From assembly GCF_900104945.1 (NCBI RefSeq), contig NZ_LT629736.1, forward strand, positions 682,001 to 746,000: a stretch of DNA of 64,000 nt, written 5' to 3'. The notes under the pieces are model-generated. The model did not search any database. It was not told where the DNA came from and saw only the letters and a list, made by a program, of their open reading frames with translations. The position numbers were made by a program, and so were the translations under genes. Each line of letters opens with the position of its first letter. The first letter of the stretch is position 1. The DNA is from Halopseudomonas xinjiangensis. Its GTDB lineage: Bacteria > Pseudomonadota > Gammaproteobacteria > Pseudomonadales > Pseudomonadaceae. Positions 2,128 through 11,065 of the stretch are shown here, piece after piece.

Positions 2128-3126
2128 TTACAGCTCCCGCATCGCCTGCATCAGCAGCGTGTAGCTTTGCCGGCGCAGCGGCTGATCGTAGATCGAGCTG
2201 TTGACGATCAGCTCCTGCACCTCGGTACGCTCGAGCAGATCGGATATCTGTTGCGCCACGGTTGCCGGTTCGCCGACCAGCGTGCCGGCGAGTGTCGACA
2301 GCACGCTGTGCCGCTCGTGCGGCTGCCACAGCGTTTCGATGTCGGCGACCGGCGGCGGAAGCGGGCCGGGCTGGCCTCGCATCAGGTTGAGAAACGCCTG
2401 CTGATGAGACGTGGCGAGATGATGCGCCTCGTCCCGGGAGTCCGCCACGTAGGCGTTTATACCGAGCATCGCGTGAGGCTGGTCCAGCTGCGCTGAAGGC
2501 TCGAAGTTCTCGCGATAAGTGCGCAGTGCGGCGAGCATATAGTCCGGTGAAAACTGTCCGGCGAACGCGAAGGGCAGACCCAGGCGGCCTGCGAGCTGGG
2601 CGCTGAAGGTCGATGAGCCGAGCAGCCAGATGGGGACATCAAGGCCGGCGCCGGGTACGGCACGCAGACGCTGGCCAGGTTGCGGCTGGGCGAATAGGCG
2701 GCGCAGCTCGTCAAGCATGTGCGGGAAATCCTCGCCATCGGCGCGGCCACGGCGCAGCGCCTGAGCGGTGGCCGGGTCGGTGCCTGGCGCGCGCCCCAGC
2801 CCGAGATCGATTCGCCCGGGATACAGCGATTCCAGGGTGCCGAACTGCTCGGCGATCTGCAGGGGCGCGTGGTTTGGCAGCATGATGCCGCCCGACCCTA
2901 TGCGGATGCGCTCGGTTCCGCCGGCCAGATAGCCCATTACCACCGAGGTGGCGGCGCTGGCGATGCCGGTCATGTTGTGATGTTCGGCTACCCAGAAGCG
3001 CTTGTAGCCGATCGATTCGGCGTGCTGCGCCAGGGCCAGGCTGTTGTGCAATGCCTGGGCCGGTGTCGATCCCTGCGGAACGGGACACAGATCAAGGATG
3101 GATAAGGTAACGGCGTTGGCAGCCAT
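2128..3126 (-). CDS. Luciferase-like (LLM class) flavin-dependent monooxygenase
   Basis: The 332-residue product has the bacterial luciferase-like fold: N-terminal beta strand LSILDLCPV, the WVAEHHN segment near residue 50, [13 protein letters not shown] near 85-97, and the [15 protein letters not shown] loop that follows the flavin region. It resembles the YhbW/MsnO8 branch of FMN-dependent oxidoreductases whose substrates are mostly unknown. The ATG at 3126 is chosen because a GGAGGAA sequence sits just upstream. A palindromic operator-like site lies about 30 bp before the start. The CYP152 gene follows downstream, suggesting a small inducible oxidation unit. Confidence 0.85.
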
Positions 3127-3156
3127 GGGGTTCCTCCGCAAGAGAATCGGTAGCCG

Positions 3157-3178
3157 GTATGCTAACTGCTTAGCATAC
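3157..3178. promoter_or_regulatory. Perfect 9-bp inverted repeat, likely operator
   Basis: GTATGCTAA (3157-3165) and TTAGCATAC (3170-3178) are exact inverted copies separated by CTGC. The site is 31 bp upstream of the luciferase-like monooxygenase start and lacks a T-run, so it looks like a dimeric repressor site (MarR or TetR style) rather than a terminator. No regulator gene is encoded next to it. Confidence 0.6.
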
Positions 3179-3280
3179 GAGCGCCCACCCATGGCTCATG
3201 TTCCGCGAATTTCTGCGTGCCCCCTCCGGGCTCGGTGCCCGGAATGGTCGTTGTTGCGTCGGCGCCTGTGGGGAAGGGGT

Positions 3281-5677
3281 CTAACGCTGCAACGCCAGCA
3301 CCGTAGCCACAGGTCGCTCTGCAGGCATCTCGGTCATCAGCGACGCGGCCGGCATACCGATGTGGTAACCCTGCGCATGGTCGATACCCAACGCCCGAAC
3401 CTTGTCCAGTACCGCTGCGCTGTGGACGAACTCTGCGACCGTCTGCACGCCTAGATCGCTGGCGAACTGAACGATGCCTCGGGTCACCGTCAGCGCGTTG
3501 GGATCGGTATCCAGGTGTTTGATCAGACTGCCGTCGATCTTGATGATGTCAGCGCCCAGGCGCAGCAGGTGCTCGAAGTTGGAATAGCCGGTACCGAAGT
3601 CATCGATTGCGATACGGCAGCCCAGCGCCTTGACGGTATCGATGAACTGGCGCACCGCAGCATAGTTCTCGATGCCTTCGGACTCGAGGATCTCGAAGAT
3701 GACTCGTCGAGCCAGCGAACCCTTGCCCAGACTGTTGACGATGAAGGTGCCGAGCTCGGGATCGAGCAGGTCTTCGCAGGACAGATTCAGCGAAAACTCG
3801 TACTCGTTATCGGCGAACCGGCTGAAGCATTGCTGAACCATTGCGCGGGTGATGTAGCGATACAAACGAATCTTCTTCGCTACGTCGAGAAACTCCATCG
3901 GGCTGACCGGCTGGCCACTCTCGTCGATCATACGGGCAAGACACTCGAACTTATCGATCCTGCCGCTACGGGTGTCCATGATCGGCTGGAAATGCGGCAC
4001 GATGCGGCCCTCGTCCAGCGCCCGTTTGAGCCGGTTGGCCCAGACCAGATTGTGTTCGTAGGTCTCGCGTATCTTCTTGGCCGGACGGTGGTCGTAGACC
4101 AGGCAGCTGGACTTCTGTTGGCGCGCGAGTTTCAGGGCAATGCTGGCGCAGGTGAGCAACTGCTCGTCGTTGAGCTCGCTGCCGTCGGCTTGCGCCGTGG
4201 TGGCGACGCCGAGTGTAACGTGTAGCGGAATGGTCTGGCTTTGCCAGCTGATCCGCCGCTCGGTGACATAGTCCAGCAGCTCGTCGGTGCGTGCCTCGAT
4301 GTTGCGGGTTGCCTCCTCGCCAGGAAGCCAGATGGCCATTTCGTCGCCCGGCATACGGTACAGCTGGCTGCCGCTCCATGCAGGTGACTGGGTGAGGAAC
4401 TGTTGCAGAGCCAATGAGAGCTGGCCGATGACGTGGTCGCCGCAGTGGTGCCCGTAGAAGTCGTTGATTTCCTTGAACGCGTCGATGTTCACCAGGATCA
4501 GTGCGCCGGCTTCGGCGCCCTTGAGATCGACCAGCAGCTTCTCGCGGTTGGGCAATTGCGTGAGGGTATCAGTGTAGAGAGTATGCATCCGCTTGAGGAT
4601 ACGGCCGACGCTAGTCAGGATCAGTGCCGACAGCACCAGGACGACCCCGCCAATCAGAAGCATGATCCGCCAGTTGCTCTCGCGCATCGGTAGCAATACA
4701 GCATCGATCTCCGCCTTCGGTACGCCGACGCCGAAAATCATGCCGGCCTGGGTGCGGCTGAAGAACAGTGCGTGGTCCTCATCATCGACGCGCAAGGCCA
4801 TGGTCTGCATGGGCGCGACGAGAAGCCGCCCCGAGACGATCGCCGATTGCGGATCCGGAGCGGTAACACGGCTGTGTAGACGGCTCTCGATCACTGCATC
4901 CATTTTCTCCTGCGCGCCGAGTGCCTCGCCGGCGTTGGCCAGGCTGGACAGGTTGCGGTTCTCGCTGTCGATGAGAAACGCAAAGGCACCTGGCGTGACT
5001 TTCACCCGGCTGACCAGTCCGATAATTTCATCTGCGCGCCAATCGGTCGAAGCCACGCCGATGACCTGGCCGCTCTCGTCACGCATCGGCGTGGTCAGAC
5101 TGATGACGACGTTGTCGATCAGCTCTTTGTAATAGGCTGGCGTCCAGAAGAACTCCGGGAGGGCATTTCCCGCTGCGTATTCGCCATGTTCGCCAACGAC
5201 CCGGCTATACCACTCGCGGGTGTGGTAGTCGCTGTCGTCACGTTGGACACGCAACGCGTCGCCGCGGCGATAGGCGTATACCGACAGGTTGCCGCGCACG
5301 TAGCTGTGCGGTTCGTACCACAGACCACCGGCATAGGCATCCGGCATGCGTGCCAGTGCGGCTTGCATGGCGGTCTCCAGCTCGCCGGCGTTATCCAGGT
5401 CCCGGGCCCGCTTCATGCGGTAAAGCAGCTCACCGGTACGCGCCAGGTTCGTAGTGTTCTGCTCCATCAACTGATGGTGAGCGTTGATCCGGTTGAGGTT
5501 GGCATAGAAGGTGTCGGTGATCTGGCGCTGGCGCAGCTCGGCCATGGCCTTCTGGGCAAAATCCAGATTCAGCGTGGACATCAGGATCATGCCCAGCACG
5601 AATACCGCGACAAGCAGTATCAGGCCCAGCATGATCGAGCGCTTGATGCGGAAGTTGCCCAGCGTCATTACTGCCAT
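3281..5677 (-). CDS. Membrane dCache-GGDEF-EAL protein, copy A (probable c-di-GMP phosphodiesterase)
   Basis: The 798-residue protein has TM helix 13-36, a periplasmic dCache-type sensor about 40-330, TM 337-357, GGDEF 370-528 and EAL 555-790. The GGDEF signature is changed to PGDEM (443-447), so cyclase activity is doubtful although the NIDAFKEIND helix is kept. EAL residues are retained: ECL at 578-580, NLSCED, EILE, DDFGTGYS (692-699), KIDG (713-716) and AEFV. It therefore most likely degrades c-di-GMP, perhaps with GTP-regulated input (inference). The gene overlaps the upstream lipoprotein gene; ATG 5677 is used, and ATG 5668 in a TAATG overlap is equally possible. It is a close paralogue of the gene at 7104-9464. 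Confidence 0.9.
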   Translation of the reverse strand: MAVMTLGNFRIKRSIMLGLILLVAVFVLGMILMSTLNLDFAQKAMAELRQRQITDTFYANLNRINAHHQLMEQNTTNLARTGELLYRMKRARDLDNAGELETAMQAALARMPDAYAGGLWYEPHSYVRGNLSVYAYRRGDALRVQRDDSDYHTREWYSRVVGEHGEYAAGNALPEFFWTPAYYKELIDNVVISLTTPMRDESGQVIGVASTDWRADEIIGLVSRVKVTPGAFAFLIDSENRNLSSLANAGEALGAQEKMDAVIESRLHSRVTAPDPQSAIVSGRLLVAPMQTMALRVDDEDHALFFSRTQAGMIFGVGVPKAEIDAVLLPMRESNWRIMLLIGGVVLVLSALILTSVGRILKRMHTLYTDTLTQLPNREKLLVDLKGAEAGALILVNIDAFKEINDFYGHHCGDHVIGQLSLALQQFLTQSPAWSGSQLYRMPGDEMAIWLPGEEATRNIEARTDELLDYVTERRISWQSQTIPLHVTLGVATTAQADGSELNDEQLLTCASIALKLARQQKSSCLVYDHRPAKKIRETYEHNLVWANRLKRALDEGRIVPHFQPIMDTRSGRIDKFECLARMIDESGQPVSPMEFLDVAKKIRLYRYITRAMVQQCFSRFADNEYEFSLNLSCEDLLDPELGTFIVNSLGKGSLARRVIFEILESEGIENYAAVRQFIDTVKALGCRIAIDDFGTGYSNFEHLLRLGADIIKIDGSLIKHLDTDPNALTVTRGIVQFASDLGVQTVAEFVHSAAVLDKVRALGIDHAQGYHIGMPAASLMTEMPAERPVATVLALQR

Positions 5678-6954
5678 TTGCCGTTGATTCCATCCTGGAT
5701 GCGTGTGTTCGCTGCGCTCAGCTGCTCATCCGAGAGCAACGCCTGCTGACCATCGATCGCTTGTTTCGCCTTGGCATTGCCGTTCAGCACCGCGAGGCTG
5801 TACCAGACATACGCCTCCTGATTGTCCACCGCGCCGGTGCTGCCGCTGGCATAGCTTTGCCCCAGCAGGAATTGCGCCTCGGCCGACCCCTTGCGGGCAG
5901 CCTGGCGCAGCCAGTGGCGGGCCTGCTGCGGTTCGCCTTGCGATTCGTGCAGTGTCGCCAGTGCCAGATGCGAGGCGATGTGGCCATCGACGGCGGCAAG
6001 CTTGAGATAACGTTCGGCGCGCGCCGGGTCCGGACTGGTGCCGAGTCCGTTCAGATAGGCCAGGCCGGCGCTGAAGCGCGCCTCTGCCAATCCCTGGTCG
6101 GCGGCCTGGCTTATCAGCTCCAGGCCTCTCCGCTGATCCTGCTTCACGCCCTGACCGTCCTGATACAGCCGTCCGAGCAGAAGCTGCCCGGCAGCATGGT
6201 TCTGCGCGGCGGACCGCTCGGCCCAGGCCTTCGCAGAGCGGTAATCGCGGCGGGCGAGGGACACGCTACCCATATGCTGCTGGGCCTTGGCATCGCCACG
6301 CTCTGCCGGCTGGCGGCAAGCTTCCAGTGCCTGGGTGTAATTCTTGATGGTGTACAGCAAGTAGCAATTGCTGTTGCGCTTGCGGTTCAGCGCATCGGCG
6401 AAGTCGGCGCTGGCCACTTCGAGACTGGGTGGCGGTTCGGCACTCGCCGCTGGCGCTGGCGCTGCTTGTGGTTCCGGGGCAGGTAAAGGGGAGGGCTGGG
6501 CCAGGGTTCTGCTGGCCTGCTTTTTTACGCGAACGGCGAATGCCTGGACTTCATCCGGGCAGGAATACAAATAGCCGCCTCGCATGCGCTGCAGATTGGC
6601 CGTGGTGGCGTCTCGACTGGCGTAGGTCCGACCAATTTCGCCGCAGCGGCGGTCACGTTCGGTGACTACCTGCTGCAATTGCCGAGCGCGGTTGGTATCA
6701 GCGGAATGGGTTTCAAGGTAGCGGGTCAGCGGATCGATCATCGGCTGCGCAAACAGCGTGTCGATCTCCTGCTGATAGCGCTTGTCATCCTGGCTGTTGA
6801 CCAGCCCGCCGGCGAACTCGGCCAAACGTTTGCCTTGTTCGGCAATCATTGCGCCAGAGCGTGAAAGAAAATCGCTGGAGCTCTCCATGGAGCCAGCGCA
6901 GCCGGTCACGCCGAGCGTAGCGGTAACAATCAAAATCGCGGGTAATACACGCAT
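5668..6954 (-). CDS. Sel1-repeat lipoprotein, copy A
   Basis: The 428-residue product starts at ATG 6954 behind AGGAGAG. Residues 1-19 form a lipoprotein signal ending in the lipobox VTGC (Cys19). A conserved N-terminal segment (70-145) holds Cys104 and Cys132. An Ala/Pro linker (about 145-190) follows, then Sel1/TPR-like repeats from about 195 to 400, for example GRLYQDGQGV and AGLAYLNGLG, with Cys197 and Cys213. It is predicted to be anchored in the envelope and to face the periplasm, where it could contact the dCache domain encoded by the overlapping downstream gene (inference). Gene order and cysteine spacing are repeated in copy B. The exact function is not known to me. Confidence 0.85.
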   Translation of the reverse strand: MRVLPAILIVTATLGVTGCAGSMESSSDFLSRSGAMIAEQGKRLAEFAGGLVNSQDDKRYQQEIDTLFAQPMIDPLTRYLETHSADTNRARQLQQVVTERDRRCGEIGRTYASRDATTANLQRMRGGYLYSCPDEVQAFAVRVKKQASRTLAQPSPLPAPEPQAAPAPAASAEPPPSLEVASADFADALNRKRNSNCYLLYTIKNYTQALEACRQPAERGDAKAQQHMGSVSLARRDYRSAKAWAERSAAQNHAAGQLLLGRLYQDGQGVKQDQRRGLELISQAADQGLAEARFSAGLAYLNGLGTSPDPARAERYLKLAAVDGHIASHLALATLHESQGEPQQARHWLRQAARKGSAEAQFLLGQSYASGSTGAVDNQEAYVWYSLAVLNGNAKAKQAIDGQQALLSDEQLSAANTRIQDGINGKWQ

Positions 6955-7002
6955 GGACTCTCCTGATCCAGTCACCCGAGGGGCTTGTCCTTGCACTAGG
7001 CA

Positions 7003-7020
7003 GGTTGGTTACGACCAACC
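7003..7020. other. Short hairpin between the two duplicated modules
   Basis: GGTTGGT and ACCAACC form a perfect 7-bp stem around TACG. There is no T-run on either strand, so a simple intrinsic terminator is unlikely. It lies in the leader of lipoprotein copy A and may mark a processing or regulatory point. Confidence 0.4.
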
Positions 7021-7046
7021 AGGCGAAGCGGTGCACGACCAGACAG

Positions 7047-7075
7047 AGGATAGGCAGACGGCGCCGAAGAATCAA
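7047..7075 (-). promoter_or_regulatory. Weak sigma-70-like promoter for module A
   Basis: On the minus strand TTGATT (7070-7075) and TATCCT (7047-7052) are separated by 17 nt, about 95 nt before the lipoprotein A start. Each hexamer matches four of six consensus positions. If real, the two modules can be transcribed separately. Confidence 0.3.
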
Positions 7076-7103
7076 ATCGCAAATGGCCATCACCGCCGAA
7101 CGG

Positions 7104-9464
7104 TCAAGCCAGTTCAACCTCCGTGATCAGCGCGCCGGCAGGCATACCCACATAGGCACCCTGGGCGAAATCGATGCCCAATTCACGCACCTGCTCCAGT
7201 ACTTCCGGGCTGTGTACGAACTCGGCAACGGTATGAATACCCAGTTCACTGGCGAAGCGGACGATGCCTCGGGTCAGCGTCATGGCGTCGTCGTTGGCAT
7301 CGAGGTGGCGAATCAGGCTACCGTCGATCTTGATGATGTCGACGTTCAGCCGCAGCAGGTGCTCGAAATTCGAATAACCGGTGCCGAAGTCGTCGATGGC
7401 GATACGGCAGCCCAACGCCTTGGCGCGATCAATGAACTCTCGAACCGGCTCGTAGTTTTCGATGCCTTCGGATTCCAGGATTTCGAAAATCACCCGTTGG
7501 GCGAGATCGTTGCCTTGCAGGCGGTCGAAAATGAATTCGGTGAGGTCGGTATCGAGGAGATCTTCGCAGGACAGATTGAGCGAAAACTCGTAACGGCTAT
7601 TGGCGAACCGCCGGAAGCACTGGTCGACCATGGTCCGCGTTATATAGCGGTACAGTCGGATCTTCTTGGCGATCGACAGAAACTGCTCCGGACTTACCGG
7701 CTGCCCCTTGCGGTCGAGCATGCGTGCCAGACATTCGAACTTGCTGATCCGGCCAGTGCGGATATCCATGATCGGCTGGAAGAAGGGCACGATGCGGCCC
7801 TCGTCCAGCGCGGTTTTCAATGCGTTGGCCCAGATCAGATTCTGCTCGTAGGCTTCGCGCACCCGGTTCGCCGGATCGTAGACGAAATAGCTGATCTGGT
7901 TGAGCCGGGCGAGCTTCAGCGCAATACTCGCCGACGGCAGCAGTTCCTCGCCATTTAGCCGTGAGTTGTCCGGCTGTACCGTGCTCGCCGCACCGATGCT
8001 CGCGTGGACGGGAATGTCGTGGTCCTGCCAGGTGATGCGCATCAGGCTGACGAAGTTGACCATCTCTTCCAGGCGCGCCGGCAGCGAGGCGGGGGTGTGA
8101 TGCCCAGGAATGATGACCGCCATCTCGTCCGCCGGCATGCTGTATAGCTCACAGCTGCGCCATGCGGCGCGGGTACGGATGAAGCGCTGCATATGGTCGG
8201 CCAACTGCCGGATGACGTGGTCGCCGCATTCGTGACCGTAGAAATCGTTGATCTGCTTGAACGCGTCGATATTGAGCAGCAGCAACGCGGCCGAATCGGT
8301 CTTGCGCAGCTCCACCAGCAGTTTTTCCCGGTTGGGCAAGCCGGTCAGCGAGTCCGTGTAGAGGGTGCTCAACTGGCGCAGGATGCTGGCGACCAGCAAC
8401 ATGATCAGCGCGGCGAGCACGGCGAAGACGGAGCCGATTATCAGGGCTACGCGCAGGTTGCTTTCGCGCATAGGGGTAAGCACTGCGTCGATTTCCGCCT
8501 GGGGTACGCCGATACCGAACACCAGTCCGGCGACCGTGCGCGCGAAGAACAACTGGTAGCTCGCGCCATCGACTGTCAGATTCATCGTCTGCATTGGCGA
8601 GCCGAGCTGCCGGCTGGAAACGATCTCTTCCGGCGCCTGAGGCGTGGCGCGTTGGTGCAGCTCGGAGCCAGAGATAGCCTGCATCAAGCGCTGGGCGTGC
8701 TGGACATCGTCTGATTCGGAGAGGCTGGAAAGGTTGCGGCTTTCGTTGTCGAGGAGGAATGAGAAACTGCCTGGTGTCACCTCGACACGGCTGACCAGGC
8801 GGATGATGTCTTCCGCGCGCCAGTCGGTGGAAGCGACACCGATGGTCTGTCCGTCGCGAGTGCGGATCGGCGTACTGAGACTGATAACGACCGTATCTAT
8901 CCCGGCCTTGTAGTAGGCCGGGGTCCAGTGATAGCGGCGCTGCGGGTCAGCTTCCGTTTCGGCAGGCAGTAGCCGCAGGTAATCTTCACGCTCGAGATAG
9001 CTCCCGGTCATGTCGCGTTCGAGCAGCATCTCCTCGCCAGTGCGGTAGGCATACACCGCGTACGGGCCGGCTACGAGTGTATCCGGTTCGAACCATAAGC
9101 CGCCGCCGAAGGTATCCGGAAAATCCTCCAGGGTTTCGGTCAGCGAGGAGTCAAGCTGGTCGGCATTGTTCCGCCCAGCCTGGCGTGATTGCCAGTAAAG
9201 CAGCTGGGCGAGTCTGGCTAAATCCTTGGTGTTTTGCTCCATCAAATGATGGTGGGCATCGATTCGATCGAGGTTGCCGTAAAAACTGTCGGCAATCTGC
9301 CGCTGGCGCAGATCGGAGATGGTCTCTTCTGCGAAATCCAGGTTGAGCGAGGACAACAGCCACATGCCGAGCACGAACAATGCCACCAGCAGGCCCAGCA
9401 CCAACATGATGGACCGCTTGACCGGGCTCGAGCCGAGCCATTTTCGTTGTCCCGGGATGGTCAT
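7104..9464 (-). CDS. Membrane dCache-GGDEF-EAL protein, copy B (probable c-di-GMP phosphodiesterase)
   Basis: The 786-residue protein has the same order as copy A: TM about 17-39, periplasmic dCache about 42-330, TM about 338-361, GGDEF about 371-527 and EAL about 553-785. Its GGDEF signature is PADEM (444-448), again degenerate. EAL residues are kept (ECL 577-579, NLSCED, DDFGTGYSN, KIDG). The QGY motif seen in copy A is QGA here. The start overlaps the lipoprotein B stop by four bases (ATGA), so the pair is translationally coupled. Sequence identity to copy A is visibly highest in the EAL domain and lower in the sensor, consistent with duplication and divergence of the sensed signal (inference). 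Confidence 0.9.
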   Translation of the reverse strand: MTIPGQRKWLGSSPVKRSIMLVLGLLVALFVLGMWLLSSLNLDFAEETISDLRQRQIADSFYGNLDRIDAHHHLMEQNTKDLARLAQLLYWQSRQAGRNNADQLDSSLTETLEDFPDTFGGGLWFEPDTLVAGPYAVYAYRTGEEMLLERDMTGSYLEREDYLRLLPAETEADPQRRYHWTPAYYKAGIDTVVISLSTPIRTRDGQTIGVASTDWRAEDIIRLVSRVEVTPGSFSFLLDNESRNLSSLSESDDVQHAQRLMQAISGSELHQRATPQAPEEIVSSRQLGSPMQTMNLTVDGASYQLFFARTVAGLVFGIGVPQAEIDAVLTPMRESNLRVALIIGSVFAVLAALIMLLVASILRQLSTLYTDSLTGLPNREKLLVELRKTDSAALLLLNIDAFKQINDFYGHECGDHVIRQLADHMQRFIRTRAAWRSCELYSMPADEMAVIIPGHHTPASLPARLEEMVNFVSLMRITWQDHDIPVHASIGAASTVQPDNSRLNGEELLPSASIALKLARLNQISYFVYDPANRVREAYEQNLIWANALKTALDEGRIVPFFQPIMDIRTGRISKFECLARMLDRKGQPVSPEQFLSIAKKIRLYRYITRTMVDQCFRRFANSRYEFSLNLSCEDLLDTDLTEFIFDRLQGNDLAQRVIFEILESEGIENYEPVREFIDRAKALGCRIAIDDFGTGYSNFEHLLRLNVDIIKIDGSLIRHLDANDDAMTLTRGIVRFASELGIHTVAEFVHSPEVLEQVRELGIDFAQGAYVGMPAGALITEVELA

Positions 9465-10819
9465 GGACGCCGTCCTGCCAGCCCGGACTGCACCCGTGCC
9501 TGGGCATCGCCGAGTTGCTCCTCGGTCAGCTCCGGAGCGATGCGCTCGAGATGCTCGCGCGCGCGCTCATTGCCGTTGAGCATGGCTCGGCTAAGCCATA
9601 CGTACGCTTCCCGATAGTCGACCGGCCCGCCGCGTCCCTCATAGTAATTCATGCCCAGCGCCAACTGCGCTTCTGCCGACTCCTGCTCGGCGGCACGGGT
9701 CAGCCAGCGCCGCGCTTCACTGGCGTTGGCGTGCTCCGAGGACGCGTACAGGCGGGCGAGAAGCAGCTGCGCCTCCACATCATTGCGCTCGGCTGCGAGT
9801 GTAAGGTAGCGAATGGCTTCAGCTGCGTTGACCGGGGCGCCGTCGCCTTCGAGGTAGGCCTGGCCAACCAGGTAGTTGGCTTCAGTCAGGCCGGAATCGG
9901 CGGCACGCTTGAGCAAAGCCAGCGCCTCGGCATCCTCTCCATCTTTTTGCAGGAGCCTGGCCATGAGCATTTGGCCGGCGGGATACTGCTGTTCCGCAGA
10001 AGCCTGGGCCCAGTGGCGGGCGGCCTTGTCTTCCTTGCTGATCAAGGCGATATCGGCAAGGTGATGCTGTGCTTTGGCGTCGCCGGCGCGCGCGGCCTGA
10101 AGACAGTCCCCATGGGCCTGCTGGAAGTTCTTGATGGCGTAAAGCAGATAGCAGCTGCTTGCCGCCTCTGACGGTGGCGAGCTTTGGCTTGTCGTGCGCA
10201 CTACACTTGTTTCGGAGCGTGAGGCTAGGGTCGGTTCGGCGCGTTTCGCCGGTGTCGGCTCGACGCGAGTAGCCGTCCGGGCTGGTGGTGCCGGGTTCGC
10301 CGCCCTGGGGGCAGCCACGCTCTTCGGCTCGCTTTGCGGCTCGGGTTTCGCCTCGGCGACGCTCGTCTCCGAATTGACGCGCCGTTCGAAGCTGGCGATC
10401 TGGGTTGGGCACGAGAAGCTGTAACCGCGTCGGAAGCGCTCCAGGTTCGCCGGGGTGGCGTCACGTCGGGCGTAACGGTCGCCCACCGCATCGCAGCGTC
10501 TGTTACGCTCGGCGCGAACGCGGGCGCGCTCCCGAACGTAACGCGGATCGTTGGCATAGGTGTTGAGGTACTGCGTCAGCGGATCGATGCGAGATTGACG
10601 GAGCAGATTGTTGACTTCGTTGCGCCGCGCCGTGGGCGAGTCAGCTTTCAGATCGTTTGCGACTTCAGCCAACCGGCTGCGTTGCGCTGCAAGCATGGCT
10701 TCGGCGCGGTTGACGAACTCGGCGGAATTTTTGGCAACGGTTTGCCGGTCAGGCAGCGTGGTGCAGCCACCGAGCCCAATTGTTATCCCTATTGCCAGCA
10801 TGTAAACGGTTACGCGCAT
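9461..10819 (-). CDS. Sel1-repeat lipoprotein, copy B
   Basis: The 452-residue protein begins with a lipoprotein signal ending LGGC (Cys19). The conserved N-terminal segment includes NRRC (Cys109) and FSCP (Cys137). The linker is longer than in copy A, rich in Ala, Pro, Glu and Arg (about 150-220). Sel1-like repeats follow from about residue 220 (SSCYLLYAIKN, Cys223; GDCL, Cys239). Cysteine spacings of 28 and 16 residues are identical to copy A. The gene is translationally coupled to the dCache-GGDEF-EAL gene downstream and runs divergently from flhA, with about 250 bp between the two start codons. Confidence 0.85.
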   Translation of the reverse strand: MRVTVYMLAIGITIGLGGCTTLPDRQTVAKNSAEFVNRAEAMLAAQRSRLAEVANDLKADSPTARRNEVNNLLRQSRIDPLTQYLNTYANDPRYVRERARVRAERNRRCDAVGDRYARRDATPANLERFRRGYSFSCPTQIASFERRVNSETSVAEAKPEPQSEPKSVAAPRAANPAPPARTATRVEPTPAKRAEPTLASRSETSVVRTTSQSSPPSEAASSCYLLYAIKNFQQAHGDCLQAARAGDAKAQHHLADIALISKEDKAARHWAQASAEQQYPAGQMLMARLLQKDGEDAEALALLKRAADSGLTEANYLVGQAYLEGDGAPVNAAEAIRYLTLAAERNDVEAQLLLARLYASSEHANASEARRWLTRAAEQESAEAQLALGMNYYEGRGGPVDYREAYVWLSRAMLNGNERAREHLERIAPELTEEQLGDAQARVQSGLAGRRP

Positions 10820-10993: not shown

Positions 10994-11010
10994 TGGAACA
11001 CTTCTTGCGT
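10994..11010 (+). promoter_or_regulatory. RpoN (sigma-54) promoter of the flhA operon
   Basis: TGGAACACTTCTTGCGT fits the -24/-12 layout: GG at 10995-10996 and GC at 11007-11008 with exactly ten bases between. It lies about 55-70 bp upstream of the flhA start. In Pseudomonas the flhA-flhF-fleN cluster is a FleQ/RpoN-dependent class, which agrees with this site. Confidence 0.72.
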
Positions 11011-11065
11011 AGGCCAGGCACTGACACCCTTTCTCGTCAACTTTTTGATGGAGCGCTTCAACGGC

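Follow-up and report, generated by a model that had tools for sequence, protein, structure and literature searches.

Does a lipoprotein encoded directly ahead of a membrane-bound enzyme of cyclic di-GMP (c-di-GMP) metabolism act on that enzyme, or do the two genes simply stand side by side? This question is raised by a locus in the window, i.e., the whole stretch of 64,000 nucleotides of Halopseudomonas xinjiangensis analysed here, in which two lipoprotein genes (LipA and LipB) and two genes for dCache-GGDEF-EAL enzymes (EnzA and EnzB) are found on the minus strand in the order LipB–EnzB–LipA–EnzA, between an oxidoreductase gene and the divergent flhA, according to the gene list of the window. 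Lipoprotein and enzyme constitute a real, conserved two-gene unit, which apparently is undescribed so far. We tentatively favour the reading that the lipoprotein is a co-receptor gating the dCache phosphodiesterase, so that the pair would be a two-protein envelope sensor for c-di-GMP.

A conserved pair of genes

The initial annotation had described two successive pairs with the same order and layout, each made of a lipoprotein and a dCache-GGDEF-EAL enzyme overlapping at stop and start, and all this was confirmed at 3281-10819 on the minus strand with Pfam (Table 1). The gap between EnzB and LipA measures 149 bp. The start of LipA was placed at the Met at 6954, where the alignment with LipB begins; the listed frame opens at a GTG at 6996. 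The identity of EnzA to EnzB is 60% in an alignment of 780 columns, and that of LipA to LipB 39%. The genome itself (3.54 Mb, one contig) contains 22 enzyme matches, and since EnzA and EnzB score 1795 and 1026 bits and the third best match 133, their resemblance lies far beyond chance.

In a sample of 37 Halopseudomonas genomes, the enzyme is present in 34, with 42 copies, and the lipoprotein lies directly upstream of 38 of them, the four unpaired copies being the EnzB of G058, G165, G066, and G202. The three enzyme-free genomes gave no lipoprotein match either; in the 1.5-kb flanks of flhA, G004 and G144 show the oxidoreductase gene with the pair absent, and G074 shows neither gene of the pair. 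A family-wide draw found the enzyme in 37 of 298 genomes, namely the 34 of Halopseudomonas and three of genus g14, two with the lipoprotein (G042 and G155) and one without it (G182). In an order-wide draw, it was found in 12 of 322 genomes at 14 loci, ten of them with the lipoprotein upstream, and in the Marinobacter-type genus of G316 in 34 of 120 genomes, with the lipoprotein at 28 of the 30 loci inspected (34 loci in all). Moreover, a scan seeded with the lipoprotein, carried out in named genomes with two peptide patterns that restrict its reach, placed the enzyme directly downstream at 62 of 69 loci, including loci of Marinobacter, Halomonas, Methylophaga, and Nitrincola; two loci lie at contig ends, and five have no enzyme. 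The co-occurrence survey thus upholds the pairing proposed at the outset, since homologues of the two genes are mostly paired and not mostly alone.

The initial annotation knew of no named system of this form, in agreement with the open-access PubMed Central (PMC) literature, where no description of a lipoprotein/dCache-GGDEF-EAL pair was found among the matches listed, subscription papers lying mostly outside this search. The papers on Alcanivorax, Shewanella, and vpvABC deal, in the portions available, with other subjects.

Architecture of the two proteins

The Pfam families MCP-like_PDC_1 (50.1 and 42.6 bits in EnzA and EnzB, cut-off 27), GGDEF, and EAL (210.1 and 215.9 bits, cut-off 31.3) are all found above cut-off in both enzymes; dCache_1 scores 40.5 and 17.9 bits, below its cut-off of 45, and the NCBIfam LapD equivalog reaches 139.2 and 154.4 bits versus a cut-off of 1020. 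It had been noted that the dCache sensors are less alike than the EAL parts, and this stands for the window genome (157/291, 54%, versus 172/230, 75%), but the GGDEF domains have diverged to the same extent as the sensors (86/159, 54%). In the predicted structure of EnzA (mean predicted local distance difference test, pLDDT, 85.1; predicted template modelling score, pTM, 0.49; 60 aligned sequences), the long first helix is followed by two PDC-like modules at about residues 97-223 and 232-326, then by a second long helix (329-368) that runs directly into the GGDEF domain, and finally by EAL. Eight EAL residues (E578, N631, E662, D692, D693, K713, E749, and Q769) are invariant across 25 aligned enzymes and presumably play the catalytic roles that they have in known EAL enzymes. 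In the GGDEF motif of these 25 enzymes, E446 alone is invariant and D445 nearly so, the signature being otherwise variable, and the window enzymes carry MPGDEM and MPADEM in place of the GG(D/E)EF cyclase signature. Because the GGDEF domain is degenerate and the EAL domain looks intact, the enzyme is likely a c-di-GMP phosphodiesterase. The closest solved cytoplasmic parts by sequence are those of RbdA (PA0861), MorA, and MucR, which have the GGDEF-EAL body in common with it, the sensor parts being unmatched.

The lipoprotein had been defined by its Sel1 repeats. These are indeed above the Pfam cut-off in LipA and LipB (3 and 4 stretches, and one in the Marinobacter protein of L100), but they are not the constant part of the family, as in two Halomonas partner lipoproteins the Sel1 matches stay below the threshold (E 0.097 and 0.013); the 18 proteins nearest to a Halomonas lipoprotein, 246-279 amino acids long, lack any precomputed Pfam domain. 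Nearly constant is an unnamed, cysteine-bearing N-domain, not the Sel1 array. In a hand-chosen alignment of 27 lipoproteins (A3), cysteines C19, C104, C132, C197, and C213, located in the lipobox, the N-domain, and the CYLL..C motif, are invariant, and C19 of the lipobox is also invariant in 28 aligned lipoproteins. The four conserved cysteines may form disulfides. Moreover, the sorting of lipoproteins follows a rule based on Asp at lipobox position +2, and the lipobox of this family, which has no Asp there, suggests that the protein would be sorted to the outer membrane. The predicted structure of LipA (mean pLDDT 87.6; pTM 0.77; 64 aligned sequences) shows a helical N-terminal part that a linker (about residues 153-179) connects to a solenoid of repeats, and a fold search with this model returned Sel1/TPR solenoids such as LpnE, LceB, AlgK, and HcpC. 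Among solved structures searched by sequence, none matches the N-domain, the best stretches starting at profile position 206 at least. The NCBIfam ExoR equivalog scores 27.1 and 21.2 bits versus a cut-off of 450.

Table 1. Positions of the features of the locus in the window (aa, amino acids; nt, nucleotides; TM, transmembrane segment).
Feature	Position	Strand	Description
EnzA	3281-5677	-	798 aa; TM1, dCache (PDC1+PDC2), TM2, degenerate GGDEF (MPGDEM), EAL
EnzA periplasmic dCache region	4694-5557	-	aa 41-328; Pfam PF22673 and predicted structure
EnzA GGDEF domain	4103-4579	-	aa 367-525; degenerate signature
EnzA EAL domain	3347-4036	-	aa 548-777
LipA	5668-6954	-	428 aa; conserved N-domain, variable Pro/Ala linker, Sel1 solenoid
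LipA N-domain	6520-6777	-	aa 60-145; most constant part of the family; holds C104 and C132
LipA CYLL motif (C197, C213) and Sel1 array	5686-6372	-	aa 195-423
LipA stop/EnzA start overlap	5668-5677	-	10 nt
EnzB	7104-9464	-	786 aa; EnzA paralogue; GGDEF signature MPADEM; EAL intact-looking
LipB	9461-10819	-	452 aa; LipA paralogue; adjoins flhA
LipB stop/EnzB start overlap	9461-9464	-	4 nt
Luciferase-like oxidoreductase gene	2128-3192		identified by eye
Sigma-54-like site TGGAAC-N5-TTGC	10994-11008	+	toward flhA, not LipB; 31/31 intergenic stretches
Inverted repeat TCAA-N4-TTGA	11037-11048		FleQ-box-like; 24/31 intergenic stretches

What the lipoprotein may do to the enzyme

To our knowledge, and as an impression, few dCache-bearing c-di-GMP enzymes have a known signal. 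In the mechanism that we propose, the enzyme would reside in the inner membrane, exposing a dCache sensor to the periplasm and, to the cytoplasm, a body of degenerate GGDEF and EAL that would hydrolyse c-di-GMP; the lipoprotein would be anchored in the outer membrane, its helical parts joined by a variable Pro/Ala linker. Lipoprotein and dCache are both predicted to face the periplasm, where the former would touch the latter and shift the phosphodiesterase activity, probably restraining it. The data bear out the structure of the genes, their pairing in several genera, the conserved residues, the co-inheritance, the pattern of loss, and the predicted folds, and to these we add, by inference, the phosphodiesterase activity, the contact with the dCache, and the sign of the regulation. 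The lipoprotein partner, if real, would provide a handle on the dCache input, be it the state of the envelope, a ligand, or the distance between the membranes. Lineages with a partner, without a partner, and perhaps with two enzymes sharing a partner would represent a natural experiment.

Related arrangements are described in the available portions of several papers. In Sinorhizobium, the periplasmic Sel1-repeat protein ExoR acts on the periplasmic domain of the inner-membrane sensor ExoS (PMC4550343), a combination of Sel1-repeat partner and membrane sensor resembling that of the window. However, ExoR is described there as a secreted periplasmic protein and not a lipoprotein, and ExoS as a histidine kinase with the sensor domain PF13756 (PMC4550343), whereas the output of the window pairs is an EAL enzyme and their most constant part is the unnamed N-domain. 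The YfiB–YfiR–YfiN (TpbB) system of Pseudomonas aeruginosa likewise joins an outer-membrane lipoprotein to an inner-membrane c-di-GMP enzyme and has disulfides in its periplasmic partner (PMC4655355), but it comprises three proteins, the lipoprotein being OmpA-like and the other two being YfiR and a diguanylate cyclase that contains PAS and HAMP (PMC4655355), unlike the window system with its two proteins and predicted phosphodiesterase. No Pfam match to OmpA, PAS, or HAMP was found among the four window proteins. In Yersinia pestis, a periplasmic cysteine-pair protein, HmsC, controls the membrane c-di-GMP enzyme HmsD (PMC8846402); HmsC is likened here by its description, and HmsD, unlike the window enzymes, is a cyclase (PMC8846402).

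The effect of lipoprotein loss on the sensor was scored as the number of changed columns among those that 90% or more of the paired enzymes have kept (103 paired rows; 42 dCache and 121 GGDEF+EAL columns). Paired enzymes show a mean of 1.40 changed dCache columns and a maximum of 9. Among the 15 enzymes scored without an adjacent lipoprotein, eight rows of genus g55 have 20-25 dCache and 8-12 cytoplasmic columns changed, and G182 has 7 and 1. The N-domain gave no match (E ≤ 1e-5) in G182, G333, G526, G564, G606-G609, G644, and G713; in total, seven of the eight g55 genomes are without a match. The EnzB of G058, G165, G066, and G202, whose genomes retain LipA, have 0, 0, 1, and 3 dCache columns changed, and LipA may serve both enzymes in these four Halopseudomonas genomes, covering for the lost LipB. 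In a tree of the cytoplasmic part, with the dCache left out and the Marinobacter lipoprotein-less cases excluded, eight lipoprotein-less enzymes are nested among paired ones, with four changes of state, three of them forced by well supported branches, and therefore loss of the lipoprotein appears to be the simpler reading. The column pattern fits a constraint on the dCache that is tied to the lipoprotein, into which Marinobacter and G488 do not fit simply.

The partnership is not obligatory: in genus g55, where all eight genomes have the enzyme, the lipoprotein is present at one of ten loci, and it is absent in two Marinobacter genomes and in G182. Several observations weigh against a gating co-receptor. 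Firstly, the two Marinobacter enzymes with no adjacent lipoprotein (L172 with 1 and L174 with 2 of the 42 dCache columns changed), from genomes G644 (2) and G713 (1), which have no N-domain match anywhere, keep a near-intact dCache, owing either to a recent loss of the lipoprotein or to its being dispensable. Secondly, in G488 a lipoprotein lies beside one enzyme copy, yet the other copy has 23 of the 42 columns changed, an argument against a shared lipoprotein in this genome. Furthermore, erosion is seen in two lineages only, and among the 103 paired rows, which contain near-duplicates of one species, four match G182 in dCache changes and one in the excess over the cytoplasmic part. With flhA controlled for, lipoprotein distances are correlated with dCache distances (partial Mantel r 0.78, p 0.0005, 33 pairs), but this result is confounded by linkage, and the value for the dCache is hardly above that for EAL (0.76). 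Finally, the G199 lipoprotein (L059:3368-4090, 240 amino acids) has the opening of the N-domain followed by Sel1, with most of the N-domain missing, although in this fragmented assembly (about 510 contigs) the short frame may be a true deletion or an assembly fault. A wider claim is doubtful, namely that the N-domain is the hallmark of a novel lipoprotein family in marine Gammaproteobacteria, whose members would be outer-membrane co-receptors that span the periplasm to gate dCache phosphodiesterases, with the Sel1 array only as an adjustable spacer or second input, and with one lipoprotein for two enzymes in some Halopseudomonas.

It is rather unlikely that the lipoprotein serves in envelope maintenance or as a factor of the peptidoglycan or outer membrane, co-transcribed with an enzyme that senses the same stress without contact between them. 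Such a role would suit the N-domain lipoproteins found without a dCache enzyme in distant Gammaproteobacteria, after rsmI in L129 and before SIS and BON in L123, the L121 lipoprotein, which follows a lytic transglycosylase gene (the upstream side only is visible), and the two Marinobacter genomes that keep an enzyme with intact dCache and no lipoprotein. However, the enzyme adjoins every N-domain lipoprotein seen in Halopseudomonas and among the order-draw matches listed, as well as at the Marinobacter, Halomonas, and Methylophaga loci of the lipoprotein-seeded scan, and loss of the lipoprotein accompanies dCache erosion in two lineages.

The position beside flhA, noted from the beginning, bears on a further alternative, namely that the lipoprotein localises the enzyme, e.g., at a flagellated pole, instead of gating its catalysis. 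The pair adjoins the divergent flhA, on the plus strand in the window, in 33 of the 34 enzyme-bearing Halopseudomonas genomes (the contig of G177 ends first), and Sel1/TPR solenoids are scaffolds, both of which favour localisation. The adjacency is seen in Halopseudomonas only, though, and the promoter-like elements face flhA: the flanks (up to 7 kb) of the loci from Marinobacter, Halomonas, Methylophaga, Nitrincola, Terasakiispira, and Marinobacterium gave no flhA match, nor did the surroundings of the three g14 loci, and in Marinobacter L100 the pair comes after genes resembling dnaN, dnaA, and mnmE (read by eye). The flagellar link is positional only, and control of motility by the pair would be plausible as for any phosphodiesterase. 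A case that speaks for localisation is that of Vibrio vulnificus, where RcbA holds RcbB at the flagellar pole if landmarks are missing; RcbAB, too, is an operon of two genes, one for a repeat protein and one for a c-di-GMP enzyme (PMC12282931). Unlike the window pairs, it has TPR on both partners, a flagellar-pole location, and a GGDEF cyclase in the portions available, and it is no lipoprotein system, the word 'lipoprotein' being absent from its text (PMC12282931). Localisation in place of gating is, hence, improbable in our view. That the genes are passive neighbours, overlapping through operon compaction with no functional link, is very unlikely. In its favour, linkage makes adjacent genes co-inherit, the Mantel result does not single out the dCache, and several genomes have kept the enzyme but not the lipoprotein; against it, adjacency is kept across several families despite differing flanking genes, and both genes are jointly absent in three Halopseudomonas genomes.

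History and surroundings of the locus

A tandem duplication had been proposed for the locus, and two related pairs do lie side by side, but the duplication is old. A recent event was ruled out by the enzyme tree, in which the A copies of eight genomes form one clade (100/100), separate from the B copies. Since the lipoprotein tree shows A and B groups matching those of the enzyme tree, except for G208, the pair was probably duplicated as a unit ahead of the split of these species. Two enzyme copies are present in eight of the 34 Halopseudomonas genomes, and in four of these eight the second lipoprotein gene is gone; where LipB is missing (G058, G165, G066, and G202), EnzB starts about 240 bp past flhA. 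The enzymes of G169, G173, and G181 fall among the B copies, so that loss of the A copy is probable in these genomes. G208 (L049) holds a single pair with a B-like enzyme and a weakly A-like lipoprotein (support 87, long branch), and sliding identity gave no clear breakpoint for a recombinant enzyme.

The labels of the two promoter-like elements between LipB and flhA (Table 1) follow the sigma-54 consensus and the likeness to a FleQ box, as we take them to be. A flagellar promoter for the pair was considered and rejected, with a sigma-54-like match facing the lipoprotein in a single intergenic stretch (L066) out of 31 and no sigma-28-like match. A sigma-70-like match for the pair was not found in the two stretches scanned.

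The enzyme-free lipoprotein matches (L129:6872-7846, L123:6785-7933, L135:6506-7231, L132:6878-7588, and L133:6677-7237) belong to records named Thiotrichales, Venteria, Thiomargarita, and one unclassified gammaproteobacterium, and the genes beside them include rsmI, a protein-kinase-like frame, SIS, BON, and a caspase-like gene. In L123, a GGDEF-EAL protein (L123:9273-11276) with no Pfam dCache match is encoded 1.3 kb past the lipoprotein and scores 462 bits against the paired enzymes, above the other unpaired GGDEF-EAL frames of the enzyme-free loci. In many Halopseudomonas loci, an extra GGDEF-EAL gene, 24-28% identical, lies beside the pair on the opposite strand (e.g., L031:5352-6560, L045:5955-7184, and L050:12523-13758); it is missing from this place in the window. 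In Marinobacter salarius, a solute-binding-protein-like gene lies past the pair (L100:10376-11125), with PF00497 just below the cut-off.

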